NCBI GenBank assembly: GCA_027459705.1 | Contig: DAIDHM010000029.1 | Coordinates: forward strand, 1 to 33,136 | Direction of reading: 5' to 3' | DNA length: 33,136 nt | Origin: Ktedonobacteria bacterium | GTDB taxonomy: Bacteria; Chloroflexota; Ktedonobacteria; Ktedonobacterales; JACDGC01 | Shown: one piece after another, positions 8,210 through 16,854 of the stretch | Position numbering within the stretch: the stretch's first letter is position 1 | Layout: each line of letters opens with the position of its first letter | The notes under the pieces: generated by a model | Told to the model about the DNA's origin: nothing | Seen by the model: only the letters and a program-made list of their open reading frames with translations | Database searches by the model: none | Program-made: the position numbers and the translations under genes

Positions 8210-8641
8210 ATGTACTTAACCTCCGGGTGCGATAGCGCAGCTTCTAATAACCGATTGTCAACCTTGTTGTCTTTCCTTTCTTGCTGTGTGGTAAGATGCC
8301 ACTAAGATAATAACTTATGCCAGCGCTGGTTGGCAAGGGTACAGTGGCTGTAGCGGAGACATTATGGTGAAAAAAAACAGTCAACTACGCGGTATATAGG
8401 TCGGCGTCCTGCTCGTTTTCAAGTCTTATCTATGCCATCACACCGCTATTGATGCCGGATCATGACCTGGCTTGCTCAGCAATTCGTGCCGTCCTTTCAG
8501 TGCAAGATCAGCAAAATTTCAGGTTTTGGCATGATGGTATCTTGTAAAAATTAAAAATATTACCATGCTTCCTCACCCTTTCCTTCGCCATGATCCATAG
8601 CCAGCATTGTAATAGTGTATAATGCCTGCGAGGCATCCAAA
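8210..8641. other. Divergent intergenic region with AT-rich inverted repeat
   Basis: This 432-base region has no credible gene. It should hold promoters for both flanking genes. A TTGACA box is visible on the minus strand at 8261-8256, without a good -10 at normal spacing. On the plus strand a TATAAT is at 8618-8623. An imperfect inverted repeat (GCATGATGGTAT at 8529-8540 and ATATTACCATGC at 8557-8568) surrounds an A/T-rich centre about 60 bases before the TATAAT. It could be an operator. Confidence 0.4.
8618..8623 (+). promoter_or_regulatory. -10 box (TATAAT) before the RSH-STAND operon
   Basis: A consensus TATAAT ends 18 bases before the preferred ATG at 8642. No clear -35 is present at 16-18 bases. 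A transcript starting near 8630 would have a very short leader, with GAGG at 8630-8633 serving as the ribosome site. This makes the earlier in-frame GTG at 8615 unlikely. Confidence 0.45.
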
Positions 8642-11600
8642 ATGTCGGATAACTCCGTGCCTCTGTCCGGAAAGAGCGGGACGCCAATGGATGAAAGCTT
8701 GCCATATGACCATATCTCGCGAGCCCAGGAATTGCTTGGGATCTGGAAGTATGGTGACACCGAACGCAATCTTATCGCGCAAGCCGTAATTGCCAAGAAT
8801 CACCCCATAAGTGGTGATTTACCATCCGAACCAGTCTTACTGCTGGCCCGGTGTATTGCGCCTGAAAAGCGGCCAGACGCGGAACTGCTGCGTGAGTTAT
8901 TCATCATCGCGTATCAGCAACCAGATATACCTATGCTGGCACTAGCCTGGCATCTCACTGATGCGCAACCGAATACCTTCTCCGCCCAGCGGGGGCGCGC
9001 GATCTACATGCCGCTGACAACCCTCTATGGCCTTTGGAAGATACGCCGTGAACTTGGACAGCGGTATCTCACTCTTTGTGAGCAAGGTCGCGCCAAACAA
9101 CTTGATCTTTCCATAGCGAAGTATTGCCAGAAATTCGCGGACTCGTTCCTCCGTTTTCATGCTGCTTGTCTGGACGTGTGTGGGGATGGGATTCAGGTAG
9201 ATCTGCACCGTCCATCGGCATTTGGAACCGATGCGCGTCACTTTCATCATGGCTTGCCTGTAGCGCTCGAAGATGTATCCAGTATGGTCTTGATCGATAT
9301 CGTGACGGCCACGGATGAGCCATATGCTTGTTATCAGGTCCTGGCAGCTCTGCATCGGCAATGGCGCCACCGCGACGCATCGGTGCAGAGCAATTTTGGT
9401 CTCCGCGATACCGTCTATCACCCGCGTTTTAATGGCTATCGCGCCTTGCGCACCACCCTGATTGCCCCTGAGTTCTCCGGCACGCCGGTCATCGTCAAGA
9501 TCGCCACGCCAGAGATGGCACTGATCAATGAGCGCGGCTATCTGGGAGCGCGCGAGCTGGGTTTTCCAGATGGGATCGGTTGGTGGACTGGTCTCACCTC
9601 CGCTCCTCCGCATAGACACCGGTCAAAATCGTATATTATGGTCTTCAGTCGCGATGGGGAAAAAATTGCCGTAGAAGAAGGCAATACAGCGCTGGATTTC
9701 GCGTTTCATGTCCATTCAGAGGTGGCCGCGCAGGCTCGGGGGATCCGCATAAACGGCCAAAGAGTATCTCTTGGCCATGTCTTGGAGCCGAACGACCTGG
9801 TGAACGTCGATATTGACCGTGGCAATAATTATGTTCAGCCTCATTGGCTTCAAGATGTCAAGAATGCCACCTCACGCCAGAAAATTCGACATGTGCTGCG
9901 TCACCTCCCCACATCACTTTCCGTCGGCCAGCAAAGGATCTGGGAGGAGCTCCTCTCTGAATGTGACAAGGTCGGGGTGACCATCAATCATGATGAGTTC
10001 AATCAAGCGCTTCAGGATCTGGCGCGAGAGTGGTATCGCGAATCCGTCGGTTCGTTGGAACATGACGCTCTGGAAGATCCAGCCGATGCCCAGGCGATCG
10101 CCCAGGCCATTTTGGCGCGTCATCTCGCGCCGCTCATCGTGACGCCAGATCAACAGCCCATGTATGCCCATATCGATCTTGCCAAATGCTGGGCGGAATA
10201 TCGCCATGATGCCTTGCGGGAGCTGAGTCATTATGGCCGTGTGGCTCCAGGAGAACCGATTGTTGGCGATGTCATCGAGTCATACCCACCGGTGGTGGTT
10301 GTGCACCGCACCGGCTGCCGCTGTCGGCCAAAGAGCCCGAGTGGCCAATGGAAGCCGCTGGCCTGGCGCGCGGTGGGGTCGCAAGAATACCTGATCAACA
10401 TCACCGCTATCGATCGTGCCGCCCTCCTGCGGCCCATTCTGGAGACGATCTGGCACATTGGCGCAGCGGCGCAAGACGGATTGCGTCTGCGGCAAGTCAA
10501 TGCGAGCGCAGATGAGAAACACCAGGCCAGTATCGAGTTGCTTGTACACGCCGAAGACGACAGCTTAAAGGATCACTTCGAGCATGAGCTCATCGAGATT
10601 TGTCAACGTGAGCGTGCGACGTACACGATCATGCAGCACTATCCGCATATGGATATCCCGGCTCTCCCAGGCATGACCCCTTATCAGGTCAATCCATATG
10701 CGTTGTCGAGCACTCAGGTGCCCTACCTTTTTTTTGGCCGCGATCAGCAATTTATCCTGCTCTGGCGCGAACTCCTCGCGACCATCGACCCTGCCCATAC
10801 TGCGCGTGGGCATCTCTTCACGCTGCGCGGGCCCGCGCGCATCGGCAAGACCAGCTTCTTCAAACAATTGCAATATCGTGCCAATCGAGACAAACTACCG
10901 CTGATTGTGGCGTATGTCGAATCGAGTGGTGAAATTAAGTCTGATTGTCATGAGATTGCCCGCAGTTTAGAGAAAGCCTGTCGCGAGCGGCTGGGTGATA
11001 GAGTTCCGCCTGCACCAGCATTCAAGTCTTTCACGACTTACCCCATGCACACCCTCGCGCTGTATATCGATGCGCTGGCGCCATTGCTTGATGGCCAGCG
11101 GCTTGTGATCCTGTATGATGAATTCACCCGTATCGCTGAACACAGTGGTGGCAACAACGATCGGTATCTCGTTGCCCTGCAATCACTTGTGGAACAACGC
11201 GCTTTTTTTGCCGTTTTGCTGGGCATTCATCCAGAAATCGAACTTGGCAAAGACGGCCAGCGGCTGGCGCTCACGTATGCAAAACTCATCGACGGCGCCC
11301 ACCAAATACCGTTGAGTTTGTTTTCTCCGCAGGAGACGCGTCAATATGTCACCGAACCCTTGAGACAGCGATTTGCTTTTGATGAAAGTTACGTGTCAGC
11401 ACTGTGGGATGCCACGCACGGTCATCCCTATTTGCTGACCATCCTCTGCCACTACATCATTCAGCACGCGCTGGACCAAGCACAGACCCACCTTACAGCA
11501 ACCGATGTGAATAATCAAGTCCAACACATCATCAATGCCCCCAATACGTATTTTCTACACTTCACCAACTTTTTAAGCCCGCTCCAACAAAATGTGATGA

Positions 11601-11887
11601 GTGTAGCCGCTGCCGTCGCAACAAAGGGATCCAGTCAATTGCAAGCGATACGCAAAGAGCTCACCCTCTTTCAGAGATGTACCAGCTCTGACATTCATCA
11701 AGCGTTGAGGGCGCTCGTGAAACTGGAACTCATCGAATTTCAGAGTGAGGATCCCAACTCAGGCGAGATTTCCATCAAAGTGCCCCTGCTGGCGTGGGTG
11801 CTGGCGAAACACTGGCGTCAGTTGCGGCGTGAGATACTTGCATTGAAGGATCGATCTGTGAAATCACCGGGAGGTATGGCCAAGTGA
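8642..11887 (+). CDS. Degenerate RelA/SpoT homologue fused to a STAND-type NTPase
   Basis: This 1081-residue protein has RSH domain order, then an ATPase. Residues about 80-145 match the end of the RSH HD region and the linker (AELLRELFIIA, LALAWHLTDAQ, then IYMPLTTLYGLWKIRRELGQRYL), but the HD catalytic motif is absent. Residues about 180-300 match the synthetase fold (CYQVLAALHRQW, HPRFNGYRALRTTL), but the family VExQIRT reads VIVKIAT, so the catalytic Glu and Arg are lost. A good TGS domain (331-392) has ALDFAFHVHSEV and LEPNDLVNV. A HRTGCRC zinc-finger-like patch lies at about 555 and an ACT-like domain at 583-655 (LINITAIDRAALLRPIL). The NTPase has FFGRD, Walker A GPARIGKTS (730-738), Walker B LVILYDE (about 826) and HPYLL, then a winged-helix-like tail. 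GAGG at 8630-8633 supports the start. The domain calls are confident; the function is unknown. Confidence 0.85.
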   Translation: MSDNSVPLSGKSGTPMDESLPYDHISRAQELLGIWKYGDTERNLIAQAVIAKNHPISGDLPSEPVLLLARCIAPEKRPDAELLRELFIIAYQQPDIPMLALAWHLTDAQPNTFSAQRGRAIYMPLTTLYGLWKIRRELGQRYLTLCEQGRAKQLDLSIAKYCQKFADSFLRFHAACLDVCGDGIQVDLHRPSAFGTDARHFHHGLPVALEDVSSMVLIDIVTATDEPYACYQVLAALHRQWRHRDASVQSNFGLRDTVYHPRFNGYRALRTTLIAPEFSGTPVIVKIATPEMALINERGYLGARELGFPDGIGWWTGLTSAPPHRHRSKSYIMVFSRDGEKIAVEEGNTALDFAFHVHSEVAAQARGIRINGQRVSLGHVLEPNDLVNVDIDRGNNYVQPHWLQDVKNATSRQKIRHVLRHLPTSLSVGQQRIWEELLSECDKVGVTINHDEFNQALQDLAREWYRESVGSLEHDALEDPADAQAIAQAILARHLAPLIVTPDQQPMYAHIDLAKCWAEYRHDALRELSHYGRVAPGEPIVGDVIESYPPVVVVHRTGCRCRPKSPSGQWKPLAWRAVGSQEYLINITAIDRAALLRPILETIWHIGAAAQDGLRLRQVNASADEKHQASIELLVHAEDDSLKDHFEHELIEICQRERATYTIMQHYPHMDIPALPGMTPYQVNPYALSSTQVPYLFFGRDQQFILLWRELLATIDPAHTARGHLFTLRGPARIGKTSFFKQLQYRANRDKLPLIVAYVESSGEIKSDCHEIARSLEKACRERLGDRVPPAPAFKSFTTYPMHTLALYIDALAPLLDGQRLVILYDEFTRIAEHSGGNNDRYLVALQSLVEQRAFFAVLLGIHPEIELGKDGQRLALTYAKLIDGAHQIPLSLFSPQETRQYVTEPLRQRFAFDESYVSALWDATHGHPYLLTILCHYIIQHALDQAQTHLTATDVNNQVQHIINAPNTYFLHFTNFLSPLQQNVMSVAAAVATKGSSQLQAIRKELTLFQRCTSSDIHQALRALVKLELIEFQSEDPNSGEISIKVPLLAWVLAKHWRQLRREILALKDRSVKSPGGMAK

Positions 11888-13377
11888 GCCAAACAAGAGA
11901 ATCGTTCTTTTTGAATCCATTCCACATTTATTTGAATCAACCGAATCCTCTACGGATCTTTGGGCGTAATCGGCTACTCTTCCAATTGGTCAATCTGCTA
12001 TTTGTAGGCGATGTGCCTGCCTCATGCATCATCAGCGGGCCAAGATATATTGGTAAATCATCCCTCACCCAGACCCTGCAAAATAAAGCCTATATGCGTG
12101 ACCTCATGGCTAACACATTTCCCGTAAGCTACTCTTTAGAGAATATCGAATTCATCAGAGTGTCCATGAAGAATTATACGGGGAGCACGAAATTCGAACA
12201 ATTTCTGTGGTATCTCCGGGCGAATGCTCAGACTTCATCGGGGGTGGATCTGGGAGAAAATACTAGCAAAAAACAAGATGATGATGTAAGGTACAGCATG
12301 AAAGACATGATTACCGCTGCCCATCCAGAGTTGCGACAACGGCGCTTTGTGGTCATTCTTGATGATGCTGGCGATTTTATAAAAAACAATCTAGAAAATG
12401 ATATGGATCGTGGTTTACGCCGAACTTCGCATGATGTCGGGATGTTTTTACTGATCGATGATCCAATTGAGGATATTATGCCACCACGCGATCGGACGCA
12501 ATCCAATACCTCTTTTTTCTTGAATATTATTAACTATATCAATGTAGCGCCGATCACCCTGGCTGATGCTCAGCAGATGATCCATGAATTATTGAACTCA
12601 CCAGGTGAACAGCTTCAGACATTTTTGCCAGCAGCAGAACGCCATTATAGTATTGCTGCTCAGCCGACGGCGACGGAGAATTTCCCGACCCAGGACTGGA
12701 GCGATGCGGAGGTCGCGATGATTCTACGCGTCGCGGGAACCCATCCTTACCTCCTCCTTCAGACCTGCGCGATCTATTATGATATGTATCCTCAGGTGGT
12801 TGAGCGCGATAACGCCGCACTCGATAATCTGGAGCAGCGCCTGATAGCCGAGGCCTTGCGCCAGGACGCCATTCGCCAATTGTTAATGTTCTATTGGGAG
12901 AAGTCCACAGATATCGAACAACAACGCTTGAACGAGAGCGCTAATGGGAAAAATTATTCCATCAAAGATGGTAACCAGCACGACGAGATCCTGCACCTCG
13001 CCAAGCGCACTTTGCTCATAGAATCTGAAGATGGAACTCAGTATAACCTCTTCTCTGAGGTTTTCGCGAGCTTCATCCGCCTGCAAGCCTCGCGGAAACC
13101 AGAAACGCCTTCCACACTGACCGGCATTGAAGAAAAACTGAGTCCGGTTGAATTGCGGCTGTGGCGCTATCTGCAATCACGACCGCGGCAACTCATCGAA
13201 ATCGATGAGCTGATCTCGAGCGTCTGGGATGGAAACCCTGCCAACCGTAACAATCTCGATGGCATTCTCTTTGCTCTGCGCCGCAAATTGGACAGCGCGG
13301 GCTATCGCGGGACCGAGGTGATCCGGAACCTGCGCGGCAAAGGGTACGAATTTCATCCCGAAGCAATGAACGGTTAA
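11884..13377 (+). CDS. STAND-type ATPase with C-terminal OmpR/PhoB-like winged helix
   Basis: The 497-residue protein starts at a GTG that overlaps the stop of the RSH-STAND gene (GTGA), with GGAGG nine bases upstream, so the two are translationally coupled. It begins with NPF..YLNQPNPLRIFGR, a STAND entry motif. Walker A is GPRYIGKSS (52-60), Walker B is RFVVILDDAGDF (about 154-165), and HPYLLLQTC is in the helical part. From about residue 419 a Trans_reg_C-type winged helix follows (LSPVELRLWRYLQ, then IDELISSVWDG, LDGILFALRRKLD and VIRNLRGKGYEF). It is likely an ATP-switched DNA-binding regulator acting with its partner. The first half is visibly richer in A+T than the neighbouring genes, a possible sign of transfer. 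Confidence 0.85.
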   Translation: MSQTRESFFLNPFHIYLNQPNPLRIFGRNRLLFQLVNLLFVGDVPASCIISGPRYIGKSSLTQTLQNKAYMRDLMANTFPVSYSLENIEFIRVSMKNYTGSTKFEQFLWYLRANAQTSSGVDLGENTSKKQDDDVRYSMKDMITAAHPELRQRRFVVILDDAGDFIKNNLENDMDRGLRRTSHDVGMFLLIDDPIEDIMPPRDRTQSNTSFFLNIINYINVAPITLADAQQMIHELLNSPGEQLQTFLPAAERHYSIAAQPTATENFPTQDWSDAEVAMILRVAGTHPYLLLQTCAIYYDMYPQVVERDNAALDNLEQRLIAEALRQDAIRQLLMFYWEKSTDIEQQRLNESANGKNYSIKDGNQHDEILHLAKRTLLIESEDGTQYNLFSEVFASFIRLQASRKPETPSTLTGIEEKLSPVELRLWRYLQSRPRQLIEIDELISSVWDGNPANRNNLDGILFALRRKLDSAGYRGTEVIRNLRGKGYEFHPEAMNG

Positions 13378-15486: not shown

Positions 15487-16854
15487 TCAATCTTCCACGA
15501 AAGATTGCACCCAGATTTCGCTGCCCAACAGCCCCAACGAGGAGCGGACCCGTCGCACGCGCGCCAGGCCTATGTCCGCGATGGTCGCTAGGGTTGTCCC
15601 ATCCTCCAGCGTGACAGGCCTGGGAAGCGGATCTGGCGATTGAATGCAGATGGCGTGACGCGCGCCGCTATCAGTAGCATTTTGTTGCATCACTGCTTGC
15701 ATGGTGGTGCAGGTACCAGCAAAAAAATCCAGAATGGTATCACCGGGATCGGTGGCGAAGCGGATGAGTCGGCGGATGAGATCGGGTGACTTCGGGGTCT
15801 CGAAGAGCGGGACGCCGCCAAAGATCTGCCGGAGCGCCGCGGAGCCATTTGGCGCCAGGTCGGTCCAGAGATCGCTGGCGAGTTTGCCTGGCGAGGGTGG
15901 GACGTAGTGCTCGGGTTTGCCGGTCCGCGAAAGACGCAATAAGTCGCAGCGGACGCCGTTCGTGGTAGGTTGCGCCGCGACCCAACTATCGATGGCGGGC
16001 TGAGGCGGCCACTCTGCGCCGAGCTCCGTCTGACAGCGGGCATAATTCTCGCAGGCGCGCTGGCTACGTTCCGCCCCCCACCGCCACTGACCGCGTTCGG
16101 GCACAATGCCGAAAAGCGGGTAACGCATGGTGGGCCGGTCAGTGCCGCGCCAATGATTGTTCCAGGTGCCGTGAGGTGGTGCGGCTTCCGCACTCGGCGG
16201 GATGATAAGCTTGGGGAAACGCGTCGTAGGTTCGCGCGCGAAGAAGACCACATATTCATGACCATGTTGCAGAGCATCGACTGTTGCAAACTGCGCCTGC
16301 ACATTCTTCACGCCACGCCGAATGACAATGATATTCTTGAAGCAGGCCTCGCCAAAAATCTCATGTAACAGGCAGAGGAGATGATGGATTTCTTCATGGC
16401 CAATGCTGATGAAGATCGCCCCATCTGCTCGTAACAGTTGATGAGCGAGGATTAAGCGCGGATACATCATGCTGAGCCAGGTGCTGTGTGCTTGCGCCCG
16501 CGTCACGCGCCGATCTGCGCCAGCCACACGACGCGGAGTCGTGAAGCGATCGGCAAATGCAAAGCGTTGGCCGGTATTGTAAGGTGGATCGATATAAATC
16601 ATGCGTACGCGCGCGCGCAACTCGGGCATGAGGAGGCGCAGCGCTGCAAGATTATCGCCCACGATCAGTCGATGCCCGGTCCCTTCTTCCATGGGACGAG
16701 GTGGCGACAACACATCGTGTAGCACGCCGCGCGGTGGCTCCGCGAGGATCTGTCGCGCGGCTACCTTGCCTGGCCAATATAATCCCAACTCCAGAACCAG
16801 ATCGTGAGTCGCGACCTCCGAAATGAAGGCACCGTCTTGCACCTGGTCCGCCAC
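15487..16854 (-). CDS. Orphan beta-class adenine DNA methyltransferase
   Basis: The 455-residue protein has DPPYNT at residues 89-94, the catalytic motif IV of N6-adenine methyltransferases. A SAM-binding motif I lies near the C-terminus (DFFAGTCTT, 376-384). This motif order is that of the beta class, as in type III Mod subunits. Motif I normally reads FxGSGTT; here a Cys (382) takes the place of the conserved Gly. An LSMMYPRLILAHQLLRADGAIFISI segment follows motif IV, as in Mod-like enzymes. No restriction gene is adjacent. The GTG start has AAGGGG five bases upstream and comes 26 bases after gatB on the same strand, so it may be co-transcribed with gatB. The target site is unknown. Confidence 0.88.
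   Translation of the reverse strand: MADQVQDGAFISEVATHDLVLELGLYWPGKVAARQILAEPPRGVLHDVLSPPRPMEEGTGHRLIVGDNLAALRLLMPELRARVRMIYIDPPYNTGQRFAFADRFTTPRRVAGADRRVTRAQAHSTWLSMMYPRLILAHQLLRADGAIFISIGHEEIHHLLCLLHEIFGEACFKNIIVIRRGVKNVQAQFATVDALQHGHEYVVFFAREPTTRFPKLIIPPSAEAAPPHGTWNNHWRGTDRPTMRYPLFGIVPERGQWRWGAERSQRACENYARCQTELGAEWPPQPAIDSWVAAQPTTNGVRCDLLRLSRTGKPEHYVPPSPGKLASDLWTDLAPNGSAALRQIFGGVPLFETPKSPDLIRRLIRFATDPGDTILDFFAGTCTTMQAVMQQNATDSGARHAICIQSPDPLPRPVTLEDGTTLATIADIGLARVRRVRSSLGLLGSEIWVQSFVED

Follow-up and report, generated by a model that had tools for sequence, protein, structure and literature searches.

The two adjacent genes described here, designated A and B, lie on the forward strand of a 33,136-nucleotide contig (DAIDHM010000029.1 of assembly GCA_027459705.1; the whole stretch is referred to as the window) from the 4.6 Mb genome of a Ktedonobacteria bacterium of the phylum Chloroflexota. 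Judged from its sequence, the product of gene A (protein A; P0001) is a whole long RelA/SpoT protein with a C-terminal ATPase resembling those of the STAND class (signal transduction ATPases with numerous domains), and it is enzymatically dead, the residues for both synthesis and hydrolysis of (p)ppGpp having been lost. The product of gene B (P0002) is likewise a STAND-like ATPase, with a DNA-binding winged helix at its C-terminus. We give roughly even odds to the proposal that the pair constitutes a two-protein relay, leading from a pseudo-RSH (RelA/SpoT homologue) sensor to transcription and independent of (p)ppGpp.

The domain order of long RSH proteins, HD-SYNTH-TGS-AH-RIS-ACT, is present in protein A, as established from profile alignment and from the Pfam matches of its homologues. 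A profile built from ten A proteins aligns in a single stretch with positions 20-721 of ribosome-bound RelA (8fr8; E 9.5e-96), with a second structure match to 5kps (positions 105-719). The window protein on its own matches the NCBIfam model TIGR00691 (spoT_relA) at E 1.5e-34, its 119.4 bits lying far under the cutoff of 499.2, and its Pfam RelA_SpoT match is likewise sub-threshold (20.8 bits; cutoff 27). In the less diverged homologues L051 and L052 copy b, HD_4, RelA_SpoT, and TGS all exceed their Pfam cutoffs; L112 passes for HD_4 and TGS, with PF19296 (RelA_AH_RIS) just under, and PF13291 (ACT_4) clears its cutoff in L052 copy b, the L060 match falling below it. Within a tree whose long branches call for caution, the RSH parts of 13 A proteins are set off from 21 canonical Rel proteins by one branch (Shimodaira–Hasegawa-like approximate likelihood ratio test 94). 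An earlier note on this DNA, made from the letters alone, had described an 'RSH half'; this was mistaken, as the entire long-RSH architecture is present and it is the enzyme sites that are lost.

Catalytic residues were counted in an alignment that set the 13 A proteins against 13 canonical Rel controls, eight of these controls being from the same class. On the synthetase side, the Glu of ExQIRT is found in 0/13 A proteins versus 11/13 controls, the G-loop Lys in 0/13 versus 13/13, and the Arg of QIRT in 2/13 versus 13/13. The hydrolase has fared similarly: the Glu and the Asp of the ED motif are both missing from every A protein (present in 9/13 and 10/13 controls, respectively), and the Asp of the HD motif survives in two (9/13 controls). 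Within the window protein, Ile replaces the catalytic Glu, Ser replaces the G-loop Lys, and the HD and ED residues are absent. A synthetase Tyr and a Mg-site-type Asp are each retained in 11/13 A proteins, the Asp column being occupied by Ser in the window protein.

P0001 was searched against 47 genomes of the class and the A profile against 400 genomes of the phylum. Full-length A occurs at 13 loci in 12 of the 400 genomes—11/47 in the class and 1/353 elsewhere (G125)—with scores of 974-1586 bits, save for one copy in G029 that is split into two matches of ~516 bits. The next-best matches are Rel proteins of at most 440 bits that end before the ATPase, the exception among these lower matches being a 399-bit fragment in G021 cut by the contig end. 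Gene B lies directly 3′ of gene A and on the same strand at 13/13 loci, with an exact 4-nucleotide overlap in three; adjacency of the homologues elsewhere was the check that the earlier note had named, and it came out in favour of the pair. Viewed from the other side, 13 B-profile matches in the 400 genomes exceed 370 bits, and 12 of them adjoin an RSH-type A, with the remaining one (G001, L062) adjoining an A-type ATPase without RSH. The B protein of G125 scored 90 bits with the first B profile and 413 bits with a profile that included it. The A and B distance matrices are strongly correlated (Mantel r=0.986; 0/5000 permutations as high), a value raised by near-copies from one genus.

In a tree that also takes in pairs with other sensors, the 24 A-type ATPases separate from the 27 B-type ones with a support of 97. 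Matching subgroups appear among the A-type and the B-type ATPases, as would be expected if one duplicated pair had co-diversified; the tree has several long branches and open forks. Beyond the phylum genomes, a contig scan of named organisms with P0002 returned no relative, and an alignment scan of named organisms made with clade 2 (the larger of the two A-protein clades considered below) brought up chiefly canonical RelA, mostly from Proteobacteria; its 80 loci contained 76 full-length Rel frames, and no A- or B-type ATPase accompanied any of these. Plasmid searches with A produced Rel-type proteins only among the matches listed, none covering 80% of the query.

Walker A is intact in 13/13 A and 13/13 B proteins. 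The Asp-Glu of Walker B is found in 13/13 A proteins and in 1/13 B proteins (G125 only); the first Asp is retained in every B, and it is followed by Asp in the window protein and by Asn, Lys, Ala, Thr, or Ser in the remaining 11. This asymmetry would fit a mixed A-B assembly. As to class, the earlier note's term 'STAND-type' holds for homologues, the A proteins of L050, L060, and L112 and the B protein of L112 passing the Pfam nSTAND1/nSTAND2 cutoffs; for the window proteins themselves the assignment is sub-threshold, with AAA_22/AAA_16 matches below cutoff in P0001 and AAA matches below cutoff in P0002. The OmpR/PhoB-type domain that the note had placed on the second ATPase was confirmed by a Pfam match over cutoff (Table 1), and this winged helix has profile matches to structures of WalR, VicR, and PhoB. 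P0002 has no Response_reg (receiver) match in Pfam, and a Pfam scan of both proteins revealed no kinase, receiver, toxin, or nuclease domain.

In the proposed relay, the RSH part of A would sense a translation or starvation signal, which for clade 1, the window's clade, would most simply be deacylated tRNA on a stalled ribosome, recognised through a retained TGS histidine. The signal would release or assemble the ATPase of A, acting as a switch, which would then pair with ATP-bound B, and the mixed assembly would permit the winged helix of B to bind DNA. The output would be transcription in place of (p)ppGpp, with a divergent sigma factor of the extracytoplasmic function (ECF) type as the likely target at clade-2 loci. 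Of what the earlier note had read as a sensor-to-transcription relay, the conserved, co-diverging ATPase pair, the RSH-derived sensor, and the DNA-binding partner are supported; horizontal transfer and a defence role are not supported, and the 'RSH half' is wrong. A broader proposal, which we hold only tentatively, is that the pair represents a second, (p)ppGpp-independent arm of the stringent response, whereby a dead long RSH would still read starved ribosomes or deacylated tRNA and would pass the signal on by assembling, driven by ATP, with a STAND protein that binds DNA. The pair would then be one case of a family of split relays between a sensor-STAND and an effector-STAND protein, with RSH, GAF, beta-propeller/HEAT, or TPR sensors and winged-helix or Ser/Thr-kinase outputs.

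That tRNA or ribosome sensing supplies the signal is itself possible rather than probable. The histidine concerned is retained in 5/5 clade-1 proteins (the window, L050, L051, L052 copy b, and L112) and corresponds by alignment to H432 of Escherichia coli RelA, which, according to the accessible text of PMC4974054, stacks between C74 and C75 at the CCA end of deacylated tRNA. Several observations weigh against the relay or against this choice of signal. The histidine is lost in 8/8 clade-2 proteins, and tRNA sensing is therefore not the general signal unless the contacts have been rewired. In the window protein, moreover, the CCA-contacting Pro-Lys hairpin reads Ser-Arg, and the finger has no Cys-Cys motif, which is missing from G003 as well. 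For neither window protein does the ATPase class rise above threshold, and no nSTAND profile matches them at E 1 or better. The structure model of A, built with 22 canonical RelA rows, has a predicted local distance difference test score (pLDDT) of 59 and is poor over the ATPase, and that of B, from a single sequence, reached a pLDDT of 37 and was not used; Foldseek retrieves RelA, Rel, and SpoT as the best matches of the A model, a result that adds little because the input alignment consisted of RelA proteins.

The candidate target is likewise uneven. An ECF-like sigma gene (Sigma70_r2) lies directly 5′ of A and divergent from it in seven of the ten loci with a readable upstream side, this side being cut by contig ends in G030, G020, and G046, and the sigma genes of the two G029 copies, which belong to different clades, are 36% identical. 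It is not beside the pair in the window, G003, or G125, and at E 1e-12 it is absent genome-wide from G000 (the window's genome) and G003. A search of the sequence 5′ of A in five representative loci revealed no shared operator: eight k-mers of length 7, all AT-rich, recur in at least four of the five loci against 2.2 expected, and none of length 8, 9, or 10 does so.

The same relay might instead respond to a small molecule, either an amino acid at ACT or an alarmone that the remnant synthetase or hydrolase pocket binds but does not turn over, a possibility that we rate slightly below tRNA or ribosome sensing. It would account for clade 2, where the lack of the TGS histidine means that another signal is needed, and it draws on the ACT_4 match of L052 copy b and on the survival of the synthetase Tyr and the Mg-site-type Asp in spite of the catalytic losses. 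The pocket has, however, given up its G-loop Lys throughout and its QIRT Arg in all but two proteins, and the window protein lacks the Asp too; furthermore, conservation within the RSH part is highest at TGS in either clade, with mean identities of 0.39 and 0.59. Less likely by some way is that A mainly tunes the real Rel enzymes of the cell, by competition for ribosomes or in mixed oligomers, with the ATPase and B regulating the tuning; we would place this last. RSH partners are at hand for such a role, since a tandem Rel pair with opposite losses is encoded in the same genome, but a DNA-binding B stands at every A locus, and a transcriptional output explains this better. These tandem Rel genes (L199, 5111-7144 and 7227-8951, on G000:C91) also occur at L200, L201, and L202, making four genomes of the class. 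The first retains the HD/ED hydrolase motifs with a weakened synthetase, the second has lost HD and retains the synthetase motifs, and they look like a hydrolase-Rel beside a synthetase-Rel.

The pair might also be a STAND system for defence or abortive infection, monitoring translation for signs of phage attack and answering through transcription; we consider this improbable, though a little less so than the tuning of Rel. Such a role, which the earlier note had also raised, would agree with the patchy distribution (11/47 class genomes) and with the STAND NTPases and TGS domains of conflict systems proposed for multicellular bacteria, as far as the accessible parts of PMC8195603 and PMC7159879 describe them. 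A Type III-like DNA methylase is encoded near the pair in the window (15487-16854); the other neighbours are mostly housekeeping genes (RuvB, GatB, UbiE, polyprenyl synthetase, and glutamine synthetase). Neither A nor B matches a PADLOC model at E 1 or better, PADLOC matched 0/10 neighbours drawn from L050, L061, L065, and L112, no toxin or nuclease domain is present in either protein, and the clade-2 loci are syntenic across genera. Neither the suggestion of defence nor that of horizontal transfer is supported. Gene B is indeed AT-richer than its surroundings in the window, with a guanine-plus-cytosine content of 0.483 (gene A, 0.543; remainder of the window, 0.574), but this is no trait of the other 12 RSH pairs, where B minus A ranges from -0.037 to +0.024. 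Because gene B stands out in composition in the window alone and its divergence tracks that of A, a separate transfer of B is not supported; the clade-2 synteny points the same way, and base composition was rejected as weak grounds for transfer.

Comparison with known systems sets the (p)ppGpp-independent relay in context. With long RSHs (RelA, Rel, SpoT), protein A shares the whole domain order, an end-to-end profile alignment, and a TGS domain over the Pfam cutoff; it differs in the loss of both enzyme sites in 13/13 proteins, the extra C-terminal ATPase, the B neighbour, and a score far under the spoT_relA cutoff. MalT, AfsR, and GutR are STAND NTPase regulators in which a P-loop switch ATPase is coupled to sensing and DNA binding. 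The A/B pair likewise couples P-loop ATPases to both, but here sensor and DNA-binding output are placed on two paralogous ATPases rather than on a single polypeptide; an RSH serves as the sensor, and the DNA-binding domain is of the OmpR/PhoB type. Two-component systems resemble the pair in that a sensor gene and a winged-helix gene are encoded together, whereas A and B have no kinase or receiver domain and carry an ATPase on each partner. The NTP-dependent conflict systems of multicellular bacteria are STAND-centred, modular, and found also in Chloroflexi, according to the accessible parts of PMC7159879 and PMC8195603. The single mention of TGS in the former is as a domain that binds RNA. Those parts of the two papers were found to contain no RSH-STAND protein, and the A/B pair differs in having a transcription-factor output and no toxin effector. 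In the accessible text of the 2011 RSH survey (PMC3153485), the words 'ATPase' and 'Ktedonobacter' do not occur, and a literature search, with subscription papers mostly outside its reach, turned up no description of an RSH-STAND protein. Within that literature, the parts are of known kinds, and their combination and the split over two ATPases appear to be new.

In the literature available to us, long RSHs are all enzymes, and (p)ppGpp is the readout of the stringent response. An RSH body that is kept while its active sites are lost, beside a constant ATPase-winged-helix neighbour, would show that the sensing part of an RSH can be redirected to control transcription directly, and the arrangement suggests a second bacterial route from a starvation-type signal to gene expression. 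The pair also offers a ready means of probing what the regulatory half of an RSH senses, free of catalysis. The wider set of A/B ATPase pairs, with varied sensors and outputs, would amount to modular signalling parallel in logic to two-component systems.

Pairs with other sensors were chosen from the best B matches and are not a random sample. The A protein of L106 comprises a beta-propeller and HEAT repeats with a C-terminal nSTAND-like ATPase, while the A proteins of L110 and L111 carry a GAF sensor and that of L105 carries TPR. At L106, L107, L108, L109, and L057, the ATPases are paired, the partner is 1600-1700 residues long, and Walker B of B reads Asp-Ala or Asp-Val. At L111 (3208-9044), the GAF-nSTAND gene overlaps an nSTAND2-Ser/Thr kinase gene, the kinase replacing the winged helix in B. 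A lone B-like ATPase with a winged helix is encoded at L100 (4303-8634), near the gene for the inorganic-carbon transporter subunit DabA; gene order at L101, L102, L103, and L118 resembles that of L100, DabA being shown for L100 only.

The coordinates of the pair in the window are collected in Table 1. The two genes share the GTGA at 11884-11887, and this overlap and the ribosome-binding site within gene A, both reported in the earlier note, are real. A longer frame of gene A could begin at GTG 8615; this start is unlikely, and ATG 8642 is favoured, because of the perfect TATAAT listed in the table.

Table 1. Features of genes A and B, numbered from the first letter of the window.
Feature	Position	Strand	Basis or remark
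Gene A, pseudo-RSH fused to STAND-like ATPase	8642-11887	+	1081 residues; start ATG; protein P0001
Gene B, STAND-like ATPase with C-terminal winged helix	11884-13377	+	497 residues; start GTG; protein P0002
TATAAT, perfect -10-like hexamer just 5′ of gene A	8618-8623	+	consensus match only
Degenerate HD (hydrolase-derived) region	8702-9184	+	placed by alignment with canonical Rel and further A proteins
Degenerate synthetase region, RelA_SpoT sub-threshold	9185-9589	+	Pfam and alignment
TGS domain	9638-9805	+	PF02824, E 2.7e-12; 47 bits, cutoff 22.2
CCA-contacting-type His codon in TGS of gene A	9713-9715	+	alignment
AH/RIS-like middle region	9821-10279	+	profile alignment with RelA
Remnant of Cys/His finger and ACT-like domain	10280-10630	+	alignment
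STAND-like ATPase of gene A	10682-11818	+	sub-threshold Pfam AAA and alignment
Walker A of gene A, GPARIGKT	10829-10852	+	alignment
Walker B Asp-Glu of gene A	11117-11122	+	alignment
Ribosome-binding site of gene B, GGAGG, within gene A	11870-11874	+	read in sequence; 9 nucleotides 5′ of GTG
Walker A of gene B, GPRYIGKS	12037-12060	+	alignment
Walker B Asp of gene B, next residue Asp not Glu	12361-12363	+	alignment
OmpR/PhoB-type winged helix (Trans_reg_C) of gene B	13135-13353	+	PF00486, 38.1 bits, cutoff 26.2

The divergent neighbour of gene A in the window, P0003 (7490-8209), has no Pfam match and a weak likeness to phenylalanine 4-monooxygenase (NCBIfam E 3.3e-5, far under cutoff); by BLASTP it is unrelated to the sigma-like genes at L052. 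On the other side of the pair, a related convergent gene follows B in all eight clade-2 loci. The members tested belong to no Pfam or NCBIfam family; the copy at L061 (10440-11783) has a sequence that we take, from its HGDL...N and IDFNP motifs, to be like that of an aminoglycoside-phosphotransferase-type kinase.

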